Source of the DNA: an uncultured Flavobacteriaceae bacterium | GTDB lineage: Bacteria; Bacteroidota; Bacteroidia; Flavobacteriales; Flavobacteriaceae | Direction: 5' to 3' | Assembly: GCA_947494565.1 (NCBI GenBank) | Contig: CANLVG010000013.1 | Location: 62,001-126,000 of the forward strand | Length of the DNA: 64,000 bases | Shown: piece by piece, positions 6,412-52,066 of the stretch | Layout of the letters: every line of letters begins with the position of its first letter | How positions within the stretch are numbered: the stretch's first letter is position 1 | Position numbers and translations under genes: made by a program | The notes under the pieces: model-generated | What the model was told of the DNA's origin: nothing | Seen by the model: the letters and a program-made list of their open reading frames with translations, nothing else | Databases searched by the model: none

Positions 6412-7482
6412 ATGAGACAACTGCTTGCCTATTTCGAAAACCCGGTCTTAAAACACGTACTGTTTTGGGTCATGGTGTACCTGTACTTCGTGCTATCGGT
6501 AAACAACATCAGTAGTTTTGGGGGGTACCGGTTTCTCTTCGAATCGTATGGGGTTATTGTCGTCGTGCAGATGATCACGGCCTATGTCTGTATCTACTGG
6601 TTGATCCCAAAATTTCTGAACCAGAAAAAGACCGGACTTTTTATCTGGTGGATGTTCGTATTGCTGGCGGTCCTATTTGCGGTGTACCAGGCCGTTAAGA
6701 CCTACTATTTTGATGTGGAATACTTTGACACCTACAACGAGGTACAACGCCAATACGCGGTAGAATCCTATGGGAAACGATTGACCTATTTTTCGGTTTT
6801 TCTGAGTAAGATCATCTTGTACCTCACCCCAACCGCCCTGTTGTTAATGGCCCGTTTTTATAAGAACCAAAAGAAGTTCTTGCAATTAAATGAGCAGAAA
6901 AAGATAGCGGAATTGACCGCCTTACGGAATCAACTCAATCCACATTTCTTGTTCAACACCTTAAACAACCTCTACTCCCTAGCACTGGATAAGTCGGATA
7001 AAACCCCGGAAGTCATTGAGCGCCTTTCCGATATCCTAGATTACATTCTATATCGTTGCAAGGATGATTATGTTCCTGTTCAAAAAGAAATCGAATTGAT
7101 CGAAAACTATCTTTCCTTGGAAAAGGTACGCTATGGGGAACGCGTTTCGGTCCAGTTTGCACATGCGATCCCTATTGAGGTGAACATCGCTCCGTTACTA
7201 CTATTGACTTTCGTAGAAAACGCCTTTAAACATGGGGTGGTACAAGAGTTGGGAAGCGCGGAAATCAACATATCATTAACCATGGATACCAAAAATGTAC
7301 TATTTTCAGTATCCAACTCAAAACCCAGTACTGCCATTGAAAAAACAATGGAAAAAGGGGAGCCGCTGGGGCTCAAAAATGTCATACAGCAATTAGACCT
7401 GTTATACCCTAATGCGTATGAACTGACCCATGATGACCAAAAGAGCAGCTATACCGTTGTGCTAAAGCTAGAACAAAAATGA
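6412..7482 (+). CDS. LytS-family sensor histidine kinase (module A)
   Basis: Membrane sensor kinase of the His_kinase (PF06580) type. About four hydrophobic helices occupy residues 15-150, a short linker follows, then the phosphoacceptor motif QLNPHFLFNTLNNLY with His178 and the ATP-binding N-box ENAFKHG with its Asn near 270. There is no separate periplasmic sensor domain; the membrane part itself is the input. The stop overlaps the start of the next gene (ATGA, 7479-7482), so kinase and LytTR regulator are translationally coupled. It lies divergent from a TonB receptor. It resembles the kinase at 30120 in length, layout and the LNEQKK(I/T)AEL linker, so the two are probably paralogues. Confidence 0.92.
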   Translation: MRQLLAYFENPVLKHVLFWVMVYLYFVLSVNNISSFGGYRFLFESYGVIVVVQMITAYVCIYWLIPKFLNQKKTGLFIWWMFVLLAVLFAVYQAVKTYYFDVEYFDTYNEVQRQYAVESYGKRLTYFSVFLSKIILYLTPTALLLMARFYKNQKKFLQLNEQKKIAELTALRNQLNPHFLFNTLNNLYSLALDKSDKTPEVIERLSDILDYILYRCKDDYVPVQKEIELIENYLSLEKVRYGERVSVQFAHAIPIEVNIAPLLLLTFVENAFKHGVVQELGSAEINISLTMDTKNVLFSVSNSKPSTAIEKTMEKGEPLGLKNVIQQLDLLYPNAYELTHDDQKSSYTVVLKLEQK

Positions 7483-8180
7483 AGTATCGATGCATCATAG
7501 TCGATGACGAGGAACTTGCGAGAAACCTGATTCAAAAACATTTGGCGCAGTTAGATGATTTTGAATTGGTCGCCAATTGTGCCAGTGCCATCGAGGCCAA
7601 TACGGTTCTTAAAAACGAAAAAGTAGACCTCCTATTTTTGGATATCGAAATGCCCGTTCTCAAGGGAACGGATTTTCTCAAAAATCTACTACACCAACCC
7701 AAGGTCATTTTCACTACCGCCTATCGCGATTTTGCCTTGGAGGGGTTTGAATTGAACGCGGTGGACTATCTCTTGAAACCCATTTCCTTTGCCCGTTTTT
7801 TCAAGGGAATCGAAAAGTTTCTAGAGCAGACCCCTTCACCGACCGCTCCGGTCAACACTAGGGAGGAACGTAAAATCGATTCCATTTTTGTACGCAAAGA
7901 CAGAAAACAGGTCAAGCTCTTATTTGCCGATATCCTCTATATCGAAAGTGTGAAGGATTACGTAAAGATCATCACGGAAAAGGAGACGCACCTGACCAAG
8001 TACAGCCTTTCCGCTTTTCAGGATTCTTTGGATGATCGATTTATCAGGACCCATCGTTCGTACCTTGTTAACTTGACTAAAATAACGGCCTATACGAACC
8101 ATGATGTCGAAATCGGAACATTTGAAGTGCCTATCGGGGATAGTTATCGCGCAGCGGTACTGGACGCGCTACGGCATTGA
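7479..8180 (+). CDS. LytTR response regulator (module A)
   Basis: Receiver domain with acidic pocket VDDEE (residues 8-12), phosphoacceptor Asp55 in LFLDIEMP, and the conserved Lys in DYLLKP. It is followed from about residue 130 by a LytTR DNA-binding domain with the RTHRSYLVNL signature. It is the cognate partner of the kinase ending at 7482, whose stop it overlaps by four bases. LytTR regulators of this kind bind pairs of direct repeats; the divergent TonB receptor promoter is the obvious candidate target by position. Confidence 0.92.
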   Translation: MKYRCIIVDDEELARNLIQKHLAQLDDFELVANCASAIEANTVLKNEKVDLLFLDIEMPVLKGTDFLKNLLHQPKVIFTTAYRDFALEGFELNAVDYLLKPISFARFFKGIEKFLEQTPSPTAPVNTREERKIDSIFVRKDRKQVKLLFADILYIESVKDYVKIITEKETHLTKYSLSAFQDSLDDRFIRTHRSYLVNLTKITAYTNHDVEIGTFEVPIGDSYRAAVLDALRH

Positions 8181-8353
8181 AAAAGAGGTGTGTTTTTCCA
8201 TAATCCGTTCTGCTAGGGATCATTTGAACGGTCTTCTCAATCGGACATTTTACGAAAGTGTTTTAATGAAATTGCCAACACTCCTTTAAAGGTTCGTTCT
8301 TGATTTCTTAGCGTAGATTCCCTTTTCGCTTGCCGACGAATAGCCCTCTTCGA

Positions 8354-8390
8354 CCATTTACTGTTGTCATACGACCACTTACTAGTTTGG
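8354..8390 (+). promoter_or_regulatory. Predicted LytTR operator (direct repeat, 21-bp period)
   Basis: CCATTTACT at 8354-8362 and CCACTTACT at 8375-8383 are 9-bp direct repeats separated by 12 bp; the second copy extends to CCACTTACTAGTTTGG. The same bipartite element recurs at 11271-11307. Two 9-bp repeats with a 12-bp spacer is the geometry established for LytTR regulators such as AgrA and ComE. It lies about 56 bp upstream of the likely -33 box of the TPR-kinase/LytTR operon, which suggests autoregulation by the regulator at 10504. Confidence 0.6.
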
Positions 8391-8445
8391 GCAATTACAA
8401 TCCATTTAGATGGCTGATATTCAATCTTTAAAGTTATTTTCTTGA

Positions 8446-8475
8446 TTTGCATTGAATGGAAATTCATTACATTTA
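8446..8475 (+). promoter_or_regulatory. Putative Bacteroidota sigma-A promoter for TPR-kinase operon
   Basis: TTTG at 8446-8449 and TACATTTA at 8468-8475, separated by 18 bp, fit the Bacteroidota promoter pattern (TTTG near -33, TAnnTTTG-like near -7), with one mismatch in the last base. The box ends 31 bases before the ATG at 8507. The rest of the gap 8181-8506 holds the operator described above and nothing else I can identify. Confidence 0.5.
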
Positions 8476-8506
8476 GAGAAGCTTCCCCCTAACTAAAGCG
8501 ATTGCC

Positions 8507-10498
8507 ATGAAGCCAAATCCACTACCCTATTTCATTCTTTTTATCGGTATGATTCTCTGTTCGCCAATTCACGCGCAAAATGAAGTAAAAATCGATAGCC
8601 TGAAGCTAACCCTTGAAACCGGGCAGACCGATTCAACCAAGATAGATACGTCGATAGCACTCTATCATGAATTGGTCAAAAAGGACACCACAGCAGCGTT
8701 GAAGTATCTAAACAACTCTATTTCGTTAAGTGAACAAACAGCTGATATCAATCGTCTTGCACAAGCATATCTAGCGCTTTGCAACCATTATTGGAAACGT
8801 GGCAACCTACAGCGTTCAAAGGAAGCGCTACAGCTGGTAGAAACAAAAATACCCCTGATCAGTAACAAGGAGATTGTTGCAAAATTCTATTTGGAAAAAG
8901 GTATTGTACGACATCGGGAGGGGATTTACTTGGAAGCGATCACCAATTTTCTTGAAGCAAAAAGTCTTTATGAAGTGTTGCAAGATACCCTAGCGACGTC
9001 TAAATGTCATAACAATATCGGTGGAAGTTATTGGGAAATGGACCAGCCCGATGAGGCTTTGGAATACTATCTGAACGCCATGAAGATCTTGAAATCCACG
9101 AAGGCGTACAATGAGGTTTCCTTTTCTAAAATACTGGGAAACATCGGTTTGATCTACAGACAGAAAAATCAATTCAAAGAGGCCTTGGTCTACTATGAAA
9201 AATCATTGCGCCTCAATAGAAAAAACAACATGAAACTAAGCGAGGCGATCAACCTTCAAAATATCGGGTCTTTGTATAACAACATCAAGGATTTTGATAA
9301 GGCGCTACCCTATTTTCAAGAAGCAAAAAAAGTAGCGACCGAAATCGATGATAAAATCGGGATTTTATATGCCAACCACAGTATTGGAAATCACTACAAC
9401 AGTTTAGGAGCCTATGCTAAAGGTATTCCTATTTTAAACGACAATCTTGTATTGGCCCAAGAGCTAGACAGTAATGAGGAAATCAAAAACCTAAATAAGG
9501 ATATTTCGGAGGCCTATGAAAAAAAGGGGGATTTTAAACAGGCCTTAACGTATCGGAAAACGTACGAAAAATGGGATGATAGCCTTACCAATACAAGTCA
9601 TTTACAAAAGGTCAAAGAGCTTGAACTACGTTTTGAAACCTCAAAAAAAGACAAGGAAATTGCAGTACTGACCAAGGAAAATGAGGTTCAGGAGGCCAAA
9701 TCGGAAAGGGAAGCCACCTTGCGAAACGCCCTCCTAGGCGGCCTTATTTCATTGGTCATCATAGGCTTACTCTTATTCTATACCATGCGACAACGCCTAA
9801 AAAATCAAAAAGTACTTGCTGCAAAAAATGAGGAAGTCAACAAGGCCAAACTTTCGGAGAAACTACAACATCTCGAAATGAAAGCGCTTCGCGCCCAAAT
9901 GAACCCTCATTTCTTGTTCAACAGCCTGAACTCGATCAACACCATGATTCTTAACGATGAAAACGAAAATGCGAGTAGGTACCTTTCAAAATTTTCCAAA
10001 CTCGTACGCTTACTTTTAGAAAATTCGGAACAACCTATGGTATCGCTCAAAGATGAGATGGATATGTTGGAAACCTACATTCAATTAGAGGCACTGCGGT
10101 TCAACAACAAATTGGACTATGCCATCACTATCGACAAAAACGTAGATCAAGAAAATACGCTGCTGCCCTCGATGGTCATGCAACCTTTTGTAGAAAATGC
10201 CATTTGGCACGGCCTGTTGCATAAAGAAAGTAAAGGGCTATTGACCCTGACCATTAAAGAAGAGGCGAACACCTTGCATTGTAGCATTGTGGATAATGGT
10301 GTGGGCAGGGAAAAATCGGTGACCTTAAAAAAAGAAGGGGGACTCAAAAAGAAATCGATGGGCATCAAAATAACGGTCGATCGCCTTAAAATTTTGACCG
10401 AACAGAAAATTCAAGATGTCATAAATATCATAGATTTGAAGGACGAAAACGAGAATGCGCTTGGCACTCAAGTCAACATTCAAATTCCTATTGCGTAA
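8507..10498 (+). CDS. TPR-containing LytS-family histidine kinase (module B)
   Basis: Signal peptide (ends near PIHAQ), then an array of tetratricopeptide repeats over about residues 45-360 predicted to be outside the inner membrane, a coiled-coil stretch, a single transmembrane helix (about 405-425), a second coiled coil, and a His_kinase module with MNPHFLFNSLN (His468) and an ATPase N-box ENAIWHG. This TPR-TM-kinase layout is common in Bacteroidota, and the TPR domain is thought to sense a protein or peptide partner. It starts an operon with the LytTR regulator five bases downstream. A tandem direct repeat upstream suggests that the operon is autoregulated. Confidence 0.92.
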   Translation: MKPNPLPYFILFIGMILCSPIHAQNEVKIDSLKLTLETGQTDSTKIDTSIALYHELVKKDTTAALKYLNNSISLSEQTADINRLAQAYLALCNHYWKRGNLQRSKEALQLVETKIPLISNKEIVAKFYLEKGIVRHREGIYLEAITNFLEAKSLYEVLQDTLATSKCHNNIGGSYWEMDQPDEALEYYLNAMKILKSTKAYNEVSFSKILGNIGLIYRQKNQFKEALVYYEKSLRLNRKNNMKLSEAINLQNIGSLYNNIKDFDKALPYFQEAKKVATEIDDKIGILYANHSIGNHYNSLGAYAKGIPILNDNLVLAQELDSNEEIKNLNKDISEAYEKKGDFKQALTYRKTYEKWDDSLTNTSHLQKVKELELRFETSKKDKEIAVLTKENEVQEAKSEREATLRNALLGGLISLVIIGLLLFYTMRQRLKNQKVLAAKNEEVNKAKLSEKLQHLEMKALRAQMNPHFLFNSLNSINTMILNDENENASRYLSKFSKLVRLLLENSEQPMVSLKDEMDMLETYIQLEALRFNNKLDYAITIDKNVDQENTLLPSMVMQPFVENAIWHGLLHKESKGLLTLTIKEEANTLHCSIVDNGVGREKSVTLKKEGGLKKKSMGIKITVDRLKILTEQKIQDVINIIDLKDENENALGTQVNIQIPIA

Positions 10499-10503
10499 AA
10501 CCC

Positions 10504-11247
10504 ATGATTAAAGCCATACTGATCGATGATGAAGCAAAGGCCCGACAAGGGCTTCGCCTGGTATTGGAAAAGTATTGCCCTGAAGTAGAAGTACTCGCAC
10601 TTTGCGAATCGCCCGAAATCGGGCTTGAAAAAATCGCGGCGCTACAGCCCGACCTTGTATTCTTAGACGTACAAATGCCCAAGATGTCCGGTTTCGATGT
10701 ATTGGAAAAAGTCCGGGATATCAATTTCGAGGTCATTTTCGTTACTGCCTATGACCGGTACGCCATCAAGGCCATCAAATTCAGTGCGCTCGATTACCTC
10801 TTGAAACCTGTTGATGTGGACGAACTGGTGGCTGCGGTCAATAAAATTTCCAGTAAACAACACGATAAATCCCTTCAGTATACCTCGCTGTTCAACAACG
10901 TAAAATCGGATTCGGAAAAATTAAAGCGATTGGCCATTCCGTCGGATAATGAAATTATCATGCAGCCCATTGCGGATATCATCTATTGTGAGGCGGCCAG
11001 TAGTTATACGACCCTATATTTGACCAATAAAAAAAAGATAACCGTCGCCAAAACCCTAAAGGAATTCGAAAATATACTACCGGAGAGCGATTTCTGTCGC
11101 ATTCATCACGGCACCTTGGTAAACCTGGCCCATGTGGTCAAATACGTCAAGGGTGAAGGCGGTTATGTCATTATTTCAAACGACCGGCATCTCAACGTTT
11201 CCCGAAGAAAAAAAGAGCGTTTTCTACAACAGTTGTATCAAGCCTGA
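10504..11247 (+). CDS. LytTR response regulator (module B)
   Basis: Receiver domain (acidic residues IDDE at 7-10, phosphoacceptor Asp55 in VFLDVQMP, Lys in DYLLKP) followed by a C-terminal LytTR domain (CRIHHGTLVNLAHV). Cognate partner of the TPR kinase, five bases upstream. Sites with the same bipartite repeat lie upstream of its own operon and of the lipoprotein operon that begins at 11479. It is therefore the best candidate to control both, although this is inferred from site identity and position. Confidence 0.92.
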   Translation: MIKAILIDDEAKARQGLRLVLEKYCPEVEVLALCESPEIGLEKIAALQPDLVFLDVQMPKMSGFDVLEKVRDINFEVIFVTAYDRYAIKAIKFSALDYLLKPVDVDELVAAVNKISSKQHDKSLQYTSLFNNVKSDSEKLKRLAIPSDNEIIMQPIADIIYCEAASSYTTLYLTNKKKITVAKTLKEFENILPESDFCRIHHGTLVNLAHVVKYVKGEGGYVIISNDRHLNVSRRKKERFLQQLYQA

Positions 11248-11270
11248 ATCCACCTACTGGATCTTAATTC

Positions 11271-11307
11271 TCACTTACTTCCTTAGGCATACCACTTACT
11301 AGTTTGG
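11271..11307 (+). promoter_or_regulatory. Predicted LytTR operator upstream of lipoprotein operon
   Basis: TCACTTACT at 11271-11279 and CCACTTACT at 11292-11300 are direct repeats 21 bp apart, with the second extending to CCACTTACTAGTTTGG, identical over 16 bases to the element at 8375-8390. The 12-bp spacers of the two sites differ, so only the repeat arms are conserved, as expected for a protein binding site. It is 172 bases upstream of the ATG at 11479. Confidence 0.6.
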
Positions 11308-11478
11308 CCTAAATCCCCTGAGGTTACCGACCTATTTTTACCCTCAGAATCACGAAGGTACGCGTAGTCTTGACCAAAACTACCGTATTGATTCAAACCA
11401 AAATCAGCCCCCCTAACACGAACAACATGTTTTAAAGGCTATTCCCCAAACTGTAATGTGAAACTAAAATTTAAAGTC

Positions 11479-12807
11479 ATGAAGTACTTGAAAAAAATCA
11501 AACCCGATTATCTATTTCTTTTGTTGCTGGTCATTTTGTTGGCAGCCTTGAATTCGTGTAGTGAAGACGATATTATGAAAGACCTTGAAGACCCGGCCCC
11601 TATTGGTCAGAACGACCCCGACCCTGACCCCGATCCCGACCCGGACCCAACCCCAGATCCGACGGGCACGGTAGACCCTGATGCGAATAAGGTTAGTGAA
11701 AGTTTGATTTTTAGAAATGGAGTAAAGCACGATGGCCAAATGCCAACTTCTTCAAATATAGTTGATATTGCAATTGACAGAGAGCAAATTGTTTTGGTTG
11801 AAGGTGTAGAACCAGGAATACTTTTTCGCAAGCCACCTGGCATGGTTCTACAAACTCTGTATACCTATATTCCTGGCAGTGATTCTTACCAGGAGGCTGA
11901 ATTTGAAATGGAGGTAGAAAATGATACTGTCGTATATTTTAATTTTGCCTTTGATACAAGCGGCTGGGAGCTTCCTGTAGCTTTCGAACTCGCCTTAGCG
12001 CCAATTGACGACACTGGAACACCGGTAGATGCATTTGTTGTACCAGTAGTCGTAGTTGAAACTACAGATTATAGTTCAGGGTGTTCAAACCCATTTGCCG
12101 ATGGTCCGTTGCACTTCTATTGGCGCTATCGTAAAGATCTCAATACCAATGAACATATTTACAACGGTCAGGTCATTTCATATCCCACTACTCCTACAGG
12201 TTGTTGCGGTCCTAATGGGAGCTACTTTCATGGCTGCGATCCAAAAGGCAACCAAGCCCAGGAAATCAATGCCGTGATTAAATCATGGGAACCAGAATTG
12301 GAATCCATTACTTTCTATCCTGATGGCACGGTTACCGGATATTTATTGAATAAGGGTAGTAGAAATATTGACCAAATCAATTCCGACTATTGCAATTTAA
12401 TTCCCACTTATTTGCCAGAAACAAGAGTTGACAACGTGTATAGCGGCACTTATACGTTCAACCCCAACGATTGTACCATCACCATCGACCAATTAACCGG
12501 ACAGGTAGAAGCTGTGTATAGCGAGTTTAGCGGGGATTATATTGGAGATTGGCCTAAATACATAGGTGCGGGTTTTGGATCGGGAACGACCTATCAAATT
12601 GAAGATTTTGAGCTTAATTTCCCTCCATTAGGAATAGAAATTTTTAAGAAGAACGATTATCTCTATGAACGTAGGAATAATCCCGAAACCGGTCAACCTG
12701 AAAGCTTTAGATGTTGGATAAATACAGACGGCGCCGATGCAGACCTTTGGTTCACACGCGCTAGAAAGTACGACCCCGCAGATCGTGATGGTCTTCCAAC
12801 AGACTAA
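11479..12807 (+). CDS. Surface lipoprotein with Asp-Pro linker, unknown function
   Basis: A lipoprotein signal peptide ends at LNSC; the acidic residues just after the cysteine (CSEDD) resemble the surface-export signal known for Flavobacteriia lipoproteins, so outer-surface display is likely. An Asp-Pro repeat spacer (about residues 45-62) follows, then roughly 380 residues containing paired cysteines (for example TGCCGPNGSYFHGC) that I do not recognise. The frame begins at a GTG 21 bases upstream, but ATG 11479 gives the clean signal peptide. It is the first gene of a probable operon with the LRR lipoprotein, behind a predicted LytTR operator. Confidence 0.75.
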   Translation: MKYLKKIKPDYLFLLLLVILLAALNSCSEDDIMKDLEDPAPIGQNDPDPDPDPDPDPTPDPTGTVDPDANKVSESLIFRNGVKHDGQMPTSSNIVDIAIDREQIVLVEGVEPGILFRKPPGMVLQTLYTYIPGSDSYQEAEFEMEVENDTVVYFNFAFDTSGWELPVAFELALAPIDDTGTPVDAFVVPVVVVETTDYSSGCSNPFADGPLHFYWRYRKDLNTNEHIYNGQVISYPTTPTGCCGPNGSYFHGCDPKGNQAQEINAVIKSWEPELESITFYPDGTVTGYLLNKGSRNIDQINSDYCNLIPTYLPETRVDNVYSGTYTFNPNDCTITIDQLTGQVEAVYSEFSGDYIGDWPKYIGAGFGSGTTYQIEDFELNFPPLGIEIFKKNDYLYERRNNPETGQPESFRCWINTDGADADLWFTRARKYDPADRDGLPTD

Positions 12808-12862: not shown

Positions 12863-14281
12863 ATGAAAAATAATCTATATCCATTTACCCTATTCATTTT
12901 CTCATTACTCATCTTGCAAACCGCCTGTAGCAAAGACGATGCGCCACCACCACCTGAAGAGGAAGAGGAAAAAGAAAACCCTGACAACCCAGACGGAATC
13001 GTTGACCCAAATCAAGACCCTATCGAGTCCGCCGACTATCTGGCCCTCAAAGCCCTTTACGAAGCCAATGATGGCAATACCTTAGGGTGGAATCTTGATG
13101 ATCCTAGCATGAGCAGTTGGCAAGGAGTCGGTCAAGAAAACGAAAGGGTCGTTCGTTTGGATGCGGAAGATAAAGGCTTGAAAACCTTGGTGCCCGAAAT
13201 CGGAAGTCTTGACATGCTCGAAGAGTTGAATCTTGGCAGTAACCAGTTTGAATCGATTCCCGCAGCGATGGGGCAATTGGGCAAACTTCAATACCTGCGC
13301 TTGCAAGAAAACCAATTGGACTCTATTCCTTTGGAACTAAGTGATATCACTACCTTAAAACAGTTTGGGCTGGCCAACAATAGGTTGAAAAAAATTCCTG
13401 ACGAAATCGGAAGCCTTATCAATTTAGAGGTATTGAATTTGAGTGATAATGAACTGGTCACACTTCCGGAAACCATTGGAAATCTGGTCAATCTTACTCT
13501 TTTGAATATCAAAAACAATGACCTCGCCCTGATCTCGCAAAAAATCTGTGATCTTGAAGAAAATGGATCGACCATGATCAACAAAGACAACAGGGCGCGC
13601 TGTGATTTGGTTTCTGTTCATTATGAAGCCCTGTTCGCTCTTTATGTCGCAAACCCAGGAAATACCCTTGGTTGGGATCTTGCGGATACCAGTATGCAAA
13701 GTTGGACCGGACTCACCTTTTTTCCTGACGGATCCGTTTCCCAACTCAGATTAGCCTTCACAGGGGTGACCCATATCCCAAAGGAAATCGGGGATCTTAA
13801 GGGGCTGGAATCTATCGACTTCGGTGATTTGAATATTGAGTACATCGCTCCCGAGATAGGAAACCTGACAAGTCTTGAAACCCTTTCGGCCCCCTATGCC
13901 AATATCAAGGAGTTACCAGCGGAAATTGGGAATCTTGTAAACTTGCGTCAATTGAGTCTTGATAACAATCAGCTCAAAGAACTGCCGGAAGAACTAGGCC
14001 ATTTGCCAAAACTGGAAGGACTTAATCTGCAAGACAACCTTTTGGAATCCATTCCTGATTCTTTCAGCAATCTCGTTGCACTTCATTCAGTGGCGTTATC
14101 GAATAACAAGCTGTCACAAGTACCCGAGGCATTTATTCAACTACCGGAACTCACCTCAATTTATTTTGAGGGCAACCCTCTGGCCAGCTCCTTATCGACC
14201 GCGCTATGTGACTTATATATTTCAGGGGTGTTGGCGCTTGATACCACACAAATAGCCACGTCGGGCTGCCCGACACCGTAA
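12863..14281 (+). CDS. Two-module leucine-rich-repeat surface lipoprotein
   Basis: The lipoprotein signal peptide ends at LQTAC with an acidic CSKDD export-like signal, then a Pro/Glu-rich spacer. Two homologous modules follow, starting near residues 59 and 252. Each opens with a cap (ALxALYxANxGNTLGW, then SMxSW) resembling LRR N-terminal caps and continues with leucine-rich repeats (LxxLxLxxNxLxxIPxxIGxL). Each ends with a pair of cysteines about 20 residues apart, probably a disulfide-closed C-cap. LRR proteins bind proteins or glycans; the partner is unknown. Start chosen at ATG 12863 rather than the TTG at 12836. Second gene of the operon, 55 bases after the Asp-Pro lipoprotein. Confidence 0.85.
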   Translation: MKNNLYPFTLFIFSLLILQTACSKDDAPPPPEEEEEKENPDNPDGIVDPNQDPIESADYLALKALYEANDGNTLGWNLDDPSMSSWQGVGQENERVVRLDAEDKGLKTLVPEIGSLDMLEELNLGSNQFESIPAAMGQLGKLQYLRLQENQLDSIPLELSDITTLKQFGLANNRLKKIPDEIGSLINLEVLNLSDNELVTLPETIGNLVNLTLLNIKNNDLALISQKICDLEENGSTMINKDNRARCDLVSVHYEALFALYVANPGNTLGWDLADTSMQSWTGLTFFPDGSVSQLRLAFTGVTHIPKEIGDLKGLESIDFGDLNIEYIAPEIGNLTSLETLSAPYANIKELPAEIGNLVNLRQLSLDNNQLKELPEELGHLPKLEGLNLQDNLLESIPDSFSNLVALHSVALSNNKLSQVPEAFIQLPELTSIYFEGNPLASSLSTALCDLYISGVLALDTTQIATSGCPTP

Positions 14282-14300: not shown

Positions 14301-14900
14301 ATGAAACAGCTATTGATCAGCTATTGCTTAGCGGTTTTGGTATCCGTATTCGTTTTTCCGGAACCATTGAACGCTCAACGTACAGTAGTAAAACGTTCTA
14401 AAGTGGTCCGCAAAAGAGCCTATGTTCGCCCGGTTCGGGCAAGACGGGTTGCCCATTATCGCTATCGCGCCTTACCACGATGGGGGAGAACTGTCAGAAC
14501 TGTTGGTGCAGGTGCTATTGGAATACGATTTGGTGGAATCGGGTACCGTTTTCATAACGGTATCTGGTACCGACCAAAAGGGAAGAGATTTATCGTAGCT
14601 AGAGCACCCTTTGGCGCCCGCGTAGGTATGCTACCTGTAGGACACCTGAAATTGGCCGTAGGCCCCAATACCTACTTCTACTATTACGGTACTTACTATT
14701 CACAAACCATCGATTCAAAGGAATACCAGGTCGTAGAAGCCCCGATAGGTGCCGAGGTAGATGCCTTGCCCGAAGGGTATACCATTGTAAAAATCAATGA
14801 CAAAGCATACTACAAATTCGAGGACGCCTATTACGAGCCCCAAATCGACTCTGCGAATACGGAGCGTTATGTCGTGGTAGCATCACCTATAGCAAATTAA
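14301..14900 (+). CDS. DUF6515 family secreted protein
   Basis: The signal peptide ends near LNAQ and is followed by a very basic Arg/Val-rich stretch (about residues 26-70). A tyrosine-rich repeat domain comes next, with phrases such as GTYYSQTIDSKEYQVVEAPIG and YYKFEDAYYEP, matching the DUF6515 pattern. The family function is unknown; secretion or periplasmic location is expected. It starts 19 bases after the LRR gene, so it is probably co-transcribed with the lipoprotein operon. Confidence 0.7.
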   Translation: MKQLLISYCLAVLVSVFVFPEPLNAQRTVVKRSKVVRKRAYVRPVRARRVAHYRYRALPRWGRTVRTVGAGAIGIRFGGIGYRFHNGIWYRPKGKRFIVARAPFGARVGMLPVGHLKLAVGPNTYFYYYGTYYSQTIDSKEYQVVEAPIGAEVDALPEGYTIVKINDKAYYKFEDAYYEPQIDSANTERYVVVASPIAN

Positions 14901-52028: not shown

Positions 52029-52066
52029 AACACTAAGATAACCATAATTGAGGAGGCGACTGGCCA

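Follow-up and report, generated by a model that had tools for sequence, protein, structure and literature searches.

Two arrays of direct repeats with a 21-base-pair period as probable operators of a LytTR regulator at a flavobacterial kinase and lipoprotein locus

We analyzed a 64,000-nucleotide stretch of DNA from an uncultured Flavobacteriaceae bacterium (assembly GCA_947494565.1, contig CANLVG010000013.1, positions 62,001 to 126,000; hereafter the window), in which the genes for a sensor kinase and a LytTR response regulator are followed by lipoprotein genes, and in which an array of short direct repeats precedes each of these two gene groups. The genes, arms and boxes of this locus lie on the plus strand. 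The kinase gene (8507..10498) encodes a protein with a signal peptide and one transmembrane segment, as judged by eye, and with tetratricopeptide (TPR) repeats and a LytS-type His_kinase domain (PF06580, 90.9 bits, residues 457-536), as judged by Pfam. At E ≤0.001, the Pfam matches in this protein were the TPR-type repeats, an RPN7 match below its cut-off and His_kinase, and no transmembrane LytS-type receptor domain was among them. The regulator gene (10504..11247) matches PF00072 with 80.8 bits and PF04397 with 67.1 bits (cut-off 22.6) over 10504-11244, and its product is the proposed binder of both arrays. Alignment showed that the RIHH, LVN and SRR stretches of its LytTR domain are kept in 11 close orthologues; by analogy with AgrA, these stretches would contact DNA. 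A sequence search of the PDB with the LytTR domain alone returned one weak relative, 3d6w.

The earlier note on this DNA had described one pair of 9-base-pair (bp) repeats in front of each operon. All four 9-mers lie where it placed them: CCATTTACT (8354..8362), which has equivalents in relatives, and CCACTTACT (8375..8383) in front of the kinase gene (array A), and TCACTTACT (11271..11279) and CCACTTACT (11292..11300) in front of the lipoprotein gene (array B). The 16-mer CCACTTACTAGTTTGG is identical at 8375-8390 and 11292-11307, the extension shared by the two last arms reaching 8390 and 11307, respectively. The two-arm description fits array A, which has two clear arms (8354 and 8375); a possible degenerate first arm, CCGACGAAT (8333..8341), is in register and weak, and five of the relatives introduced below (L006, L008, L010, L012 and L024) have a better arm at the equivalent place. 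It does not fit array B, where an arm with two mismatches, CCACCTACT (11250..11258), had been overlooked. The downstream site is therefore a triplet (11250, 11271 and 11292; period 21), whose first arm begins 3 positions past the final nucleotide of the regulator's stop codon.

The repeats are nearly private to this locus. The pattern YCAYTTACT-N12-CCACTTACT matched twice in the window and never in 100 dinucleotide-preserving shuffles. In the whole-genome search that the earlier note had called for (5.39 Mb), the exact pattern occurred solely at these two places and no additional match appeared with one mismatch; two mismatches added two more places, the array B arm at 11250 and C7:153122. We rejected the latter as a third target, as it lies antisense within an open reading frame (ORF) that reads as an RND-type transporter. 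A looser pattern found 10 places in the genome, 8 of them with two mismatches and 7, C7:153122 included, outside this locus, against 1 for its reversed control. Among 199 genomes of the family, the pattern with at most one mismatch found 28 places in 25 genomes (26 places outside the own genome) versus 17 for the reversed control, so that the motif is not far above background away from the close orthologues.

We used the regulator to query a collection of 84,980 genomes, one per species, which returned at least 456 relatives, and the best 80 loci (L005-L084, 40-89% identical) were scanned for paired arms at periods of 17-25 in the 260 bp behind the regulator gene (region B) and the 260 bp before the kinase gene (region A). 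Twelve loci with a regulator identity of at least 65%, including the window, form the close group; one of them, L011, looks like a copy of L010. Region B gave its lowest pair mismatch at period 21 in all 12 close loci, never with more than 3 mismatches, and region A, before the TPR-kinase gene, had at most 3 mismatches in 8 of the 12. Random 260-bp stretches of the same loci (17,993) reached 3 mismatches in 0.2% of cases and never fewer. The recurrence at orthologous promoters that the earlier note had asked about was thus found in every close locus behind the regulator and in two-thirds of them before the kinase. A self-repeat scan of the close group that used no motif peaked again at period 21 (8/11 loci in A and 7/11 in B). 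At 50-64% identity the arm letters are mostly lost, with at most 3 mismatches in 1/11 loci for B and 0/11 for A. Pooling A and B, 49 arms with no more than two mismatches each give the consensus (A/G)CCACTTACT, in which the second C and the T at position 6 are invariant; as the arms were chosen by likeness to the motif, their letters and identity are biased towards it, and their places and spacers are not.

The arms are conserved and the DNA between them has diverged. When 11 loci (L011 omitted) were registered on the arms, with one gap in L009 to align the -7 box described below, mean pairwise identity was 0.68, 0.73 and 0.85 for arms 1, 2 and 3 of array B and 0.32 for the two spacers. The stretch from arm 3 to the box scored 0.37 and the six specified letters of the box 0.93; the third codon positions of the last 60 regulator codons scored 0.42 (10 loci, L007 omitted). 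In 9 of the 11 loci the first arm begins 2 or 3 positions past the regulator stop codon (9 in L007, 0 in L015). The shuffles, the genome scan, the comparison of loci and this arm conservation led us to reject a chance origin of the repeats. A position directly behind a stop codon might instead point to an RNA element or a terminator. The conserved letters are direct repeats at a rigid 21-bp spacing, and predicted folding was not unusual (z -1.03 for 11245-11345 and z 0.40 for 8330-8430). The single Rfam match at E ≤1 scored below the gathering score and lies elsewhere (8597-8638), and none of the 5 terminator-like sites found is in an array. On these fold scores and scans, we rejected an RNA element or terminator, which we regard as the least probable of the explanations considered.

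The genome encodes 44 LytTR domains, and a second LytS/LytTR pair lies directly upstream of the locus (6412-8180), raising the possibility that the arrays belong to another LytTR protein, for instance the neighbor at 7479. In the relatives, by contrast, the arrays travel with the orthologue of the 10504 regulator and its kinase, and the constant position of the first arm relative to the stop codon is that of this orthologue in the same 9 of 11 loci. No relative of the 7479 or 6412 gene is labeled in the examined stretches of these genomes, and no ORF there matched the 6412-8180 pair, which therefore does not account for their arrays. We consider ownership by another LytTR protein highly improbable. 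The regulator itself is patchily distributed: counting the own genome, it was found in 4 of 199 genomes of the family at E 1e-70 or better and in 2 of 395 genomes of the order at E 1e-85. As a separate observation, seven of the 44 LytTR domains are within the 64-kb window (7479-42609), which is about 1.2% of the genome, several of them beside LytS-type kinases; short tandem GTTCACT repeats also occur at window position 52064.

The first gene behind array B (11479..12807) encodes a lipoprotein, as judged by eye from its LNSC-SEDD sequence, with an Asp-Pro linker and no Pfam match. A leucine-rich-repeat protein, also a lipoprotein by eye (12866..14281), and a DUF6515 protein (14301..14900) are presumed to be encoded by the second and third genes of the same operon; L008 and L015 likewise carry a DUF6515 gene downstream of the regulator. 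In each of the 10 close loci whose sequence reaches far enough (that of L013 does not), the first ORF behind array B reads by eye as a lipoprotein, and in 9 of these 10 at least two neighboring acidic residues stand no more than five positions from the cysteine (for instance C-SEDD, C-KKDD, C-NKDD). The accessible part of PMC5080379 lists the surface-export signals C-X-K-(D/E)2 for Capnocytophaga, SDDDD for Bacteroides and SDDFE for Flavobacterium. The LNSC-SEDD of the window, compared by eye, resembles these signals and is not identical to them. The lipoprotein may be exposed on the cell surface. An AlphaFold2 model of this protein from 10 sequences had a mean predicted local distance difference test score (pLDDT) of 55.6, too poor for a fold search.

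The earlier note's picture of the promoters overlooked their -7 boxes. The flavobacterial sigma-A -7 box is given as TAnnTTTG at -12 to -5 in the accessible part of PMC9723704, and the box TATTTTTA (11333..11340) stands 32 nucleotides (nt) past arm 3 of array B. Of 11 B regions, 10 have a TAnnTTTR whose first base is 32 nt past the end of the last arm, and L009 has it at 31 nt. For this count, the last letter of the box had been widened from G to R after the boxes were seen, and a fourth arm in L012 (6810, 3 mismatches) had been dropped beforehand. No consistent -33 box accompanies it, a TTG being found 17-21 nt before the B box in just 2 of 11 loci. With the start of the last arm 41 bp before the -7 box and no consistent -33 TTG, recruitment of RNA polymerase would be the most likely mode of action. 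The arrays might alternatively bind the regulator in order to repress transcription or to titrate the protein, with phosphorylation releasing or rearranging it. Such a role has a precedent in the LytTR regulator CoxC, which has three direct repeats and acts as a repressor according to the available text of PMC11347149, and array A is far from its stronger -7 box. The CoxC operator, however, overlaps the -35 element. At the present locus, 32 nt separate the end of the last arm from the -7 box, and the layout of array and box in promoters without a consistent -33 TTG fits an activator better. The same text also has most LytTR regulators binding upstream of -35 and activating. Repression or titration therefore seems unlikely to us, although less so than the two alternatives discussed above.

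Array A has either a weaker version of this architecture or an additional promoter. At the standard distance of 32 nt past its last arm is the -7-like element GATATTCA (8416..8423), which has 2 mismatches to TAnnTTTR and is kept in the window, L024 and L005; across region A of 8 loci, an offset of 32 had the highest mean -7 score (4.12 of 6, against an average over offsets of 2.28 with a standard deviation of 0.54). An alternative box for the kinase operon, TACATTTA (8468..8475), stands 84 nt past the last arm, and perfect boxes lie 80-86 nt after the last A arm in the window, L024, L005 and L006. Two observations concern the leaders. The sequence CCCCCTAAC occurs exactly twice in the window (8485-8493 and 11409-11417), once in the leader of each array-bearing operon; 2 of 100 shuffles had two or more copies. 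The leader from the B promoter to the lipoprotein gene (11341-11478) is long and partly conserved among the window, L024 and L005 (TTGACCAAA, TGATTCA and CCCCCTAACAC), unlike that of seven other relatives, in which the start is 30-61 nt after the box.

Several results weigh against assigning both arrays to the 10504 regulator as activating operators. The kinase-side array is absent in L007, L009 and L013 (6-7 mismatches) and weak in L012 (4 mismatches), and L006 and L015 have a weak arm 1 in array B. Because the loci share ancestry, the counts are not independent. The published final G of the -7 box is present in only 3 of 11 B boxes, A being found in the other 8, and a TTG with a spacing of 18 or 21 does occur in two of the 11 B promoters. 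As for the target gene, L009 (C-KKSEL) has one acidic residue near the lipid cysteine, and the first ORF is short in L008 (56 residues) and L015 (64 residues); with a minimum of 80 residues, L015 still has a lipoprotein by eye and L008 does not, giving 9/10. We are less sure that the regulator controls the kinase operon than that it controls the lipoprotein operon, because the -7 element at the standard offset of array A is poor and a better box lies 52 nt further on.

Taking the evidence together, we conclude that both arrays are very probably operators of the 10504 LytTR regulator, which would place this regulator at the lipoprotein promoter and probably also at the promoter of its own kinase-regulator operon. 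The link of the operators to the regulator and to the lipoprotein gene appears well supported by comparison of sequences. The earlier proposal that the regulator controls its own operon and the lipoproteins likewise gains support from the near-privacy of the motif, its recurrence in orthologous loci and the lipoprotein behind array B in 10/10 cases. We propose that a periplasmic signal would reach the TPR kinase, which would phosphorylate the regulator; the regulator would then bind tandem (A/G)CCACTTACT half-sites that follow one another at intervals of two helical turns, with three in front of the lipoprotein operon and two clear ones in front of its own operon. Bound regulator would most likely recruit RNA polymerase and switch on the operon for the lipoprotein, the leucine-rich-repeat protein and the DUF6515 protein, and probably its own operon as well, in a positive feedback.

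Operators of this kind are known. The half-sites at the locus are direct repeats of about 9 bp, about 12 bp apart, as for LytTR response regulators, and the available text of PMC11347149 gives the canonical LytTR site as a pair of 9-bp direct repeats 10-13 bp apart. The earlier note had compared the spacing with those of AgrA and ComE; the spacing is indeed canonical for LytTR regulators, but the closest half-site that could be checked is that of Escherichia coli btsT. The arm sequence and the neighboring genes of the window differ from those of AgrA, ComE and LytTR operators in general, and no peptide-pheromone gene was noted in the neighborhood, where no specific search for one was made. Upstream of E. 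coli btsT, ACCGCTTA and ACCACTCA are exactly 21 bp apart, a pair that is reportedly the BtsR operator (Kraxenberger et al. 2012). The BtsS/BtsR (YehU/YehT) system shares with the locus a LytS-type kinase and a LytTR regulator (32% identical), as well as the half-site class ACC[GA]CT[CT]A at a 21-bp period; window positions 8374-8381 and 11291-11298 match this class exactly and the remaining three arms with 1-2 mismatches. BtsS differs in being a transmembrane LytS receptor for pyruvate, whereas the sensor here is a TPR kinase, and the neighbor there is a transporter gene, in place of the lipoprotein genes, three-arm lipoprotein promoter and Bacteroidota -7 box of the window. RcoM1 and CoxC of carbon monoxide metabolism resemble the locus in having an operator of three direct repeats with a spacing of about two helical turns, as described in the available text of PMC11347149. 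They differ in that their arms are TTCNNGCA or TTNNNGCN, their sensor is fused to the DNA-binding domain and CoxC represses from a site overlapping -35; the three repeats of the window have other letters than an RcoM/CoxC-type TTCNNGCA triple. The canonical pairs, the RcoM1/CoxC triples and the btsT half-site together place the window's probable operators in a known kind. A literature search short of most subscription journals found no report of a LytTR operator in Bacteroidota among the titles and abstract openings listed, and where Flavobacterium papers name both LytTR and direct repeats, the repeats in their accessible parts concern CRISPR, insertion elements or a deletion.

We also considered whether Bacteroidota LytTR regulators share a general plan, in which tandem arms with letters private to each regulator have their last arm 40-41 bp before TAnnTTTR, without a -33 element. 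Scans for three CCRYTYAC arms at period 21, with TAnnTTTR at a set distance from the start of the last arm, gave 11 matches at 41 nt, 1 at 40 and two single matches elsewhere in the grid for 10 close relatives. For 69 far relatives there were 6 matches at 41 and 4 at 40, with 0-3 in the other cells, and 33 stretches of the own genome gave 3 at 41 and 2 at 40, with 0-1 elsewhere. Reversed arms at spacing 40 yielded 4 matches in far relatives and 3 in own regions. This control is high because CCRYTYAC read in reverse looks like the motif displaced by a single base; the motif's own sites make up most of its matches (window, L158, L016, L018, L041 and L054; not L160). With 60 shuffles of the arm letters at spacing 41, 3/60 reached the motif's 3 matches in own regions (shuffle mean 0.35) and 1/60 its 6 in far relatives (shuffle mean 0.92). 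These controls slightly lower the chances of a shared plan. A two-arm scan of the 300 bp behind the regulator found 3/69 far loci at 40 and 5/69 at 41, and no other cell exceeded 2, the reversed control included. At L158 in the own genome, CCATTCACT, GCGTTCACT and CTTTACACT are followed by TAGTTTTA at the same distance as the box in the window; this three-arm array of other letters (within L158:3119-4581) has a lipoprotein gene on one side and a divergently oriented LytTR regulator gene on the other. These wider scans speak for a shared plan in which each regulator has its own letters, but are no proof of it.

A scan blind to the motif was suggestive only. It covered 32 other stretches of the own genome, two of which overlap. 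An upstream 21-bp tandem repeat accompanied 11 of their 113 non-coding boxes, compared with 0-3 at other periods and 3 in the downstream mirror. Only two of these 11 sites have a LytTR domain no further than 250 nt away, and five have one at a distance of up to 1 kb; one site resembles a tRNA gene boundary. A separate ORF test for LytTR at these sites was crude and missed the window's own regulator. For far relatives the counts were 19/314 at period 21 and 11 in the mirror. Two further arrays were seen in passing. In Pricia antarctica (L018:11161), a second array of the same geometry is present further along, before a gene that reads by eye as a lipoprotein gene. On the minus strand of L172, in the own genome, ATTTTCACAACAA and ATTACACAACAA, spaced by 21 bp, stand behind another LytTR regulator gene, with the box TAATTTTG (3953) at about the same distance. 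We put forward the general plan tentatively, giving it somewhat less than an even chance.

The conserved operator and its fixed distance to the -7 box provide a concrete rule for predicting which genes are under regulators of this type, and they tie a TPR kinase to a defined lipoprotein operon. If the general plan were true, the regulons of the dozens of LytTR paralogues in each genome would become readable from sequence, and many such regulons would pair a kinase with a surface lipoprotein.

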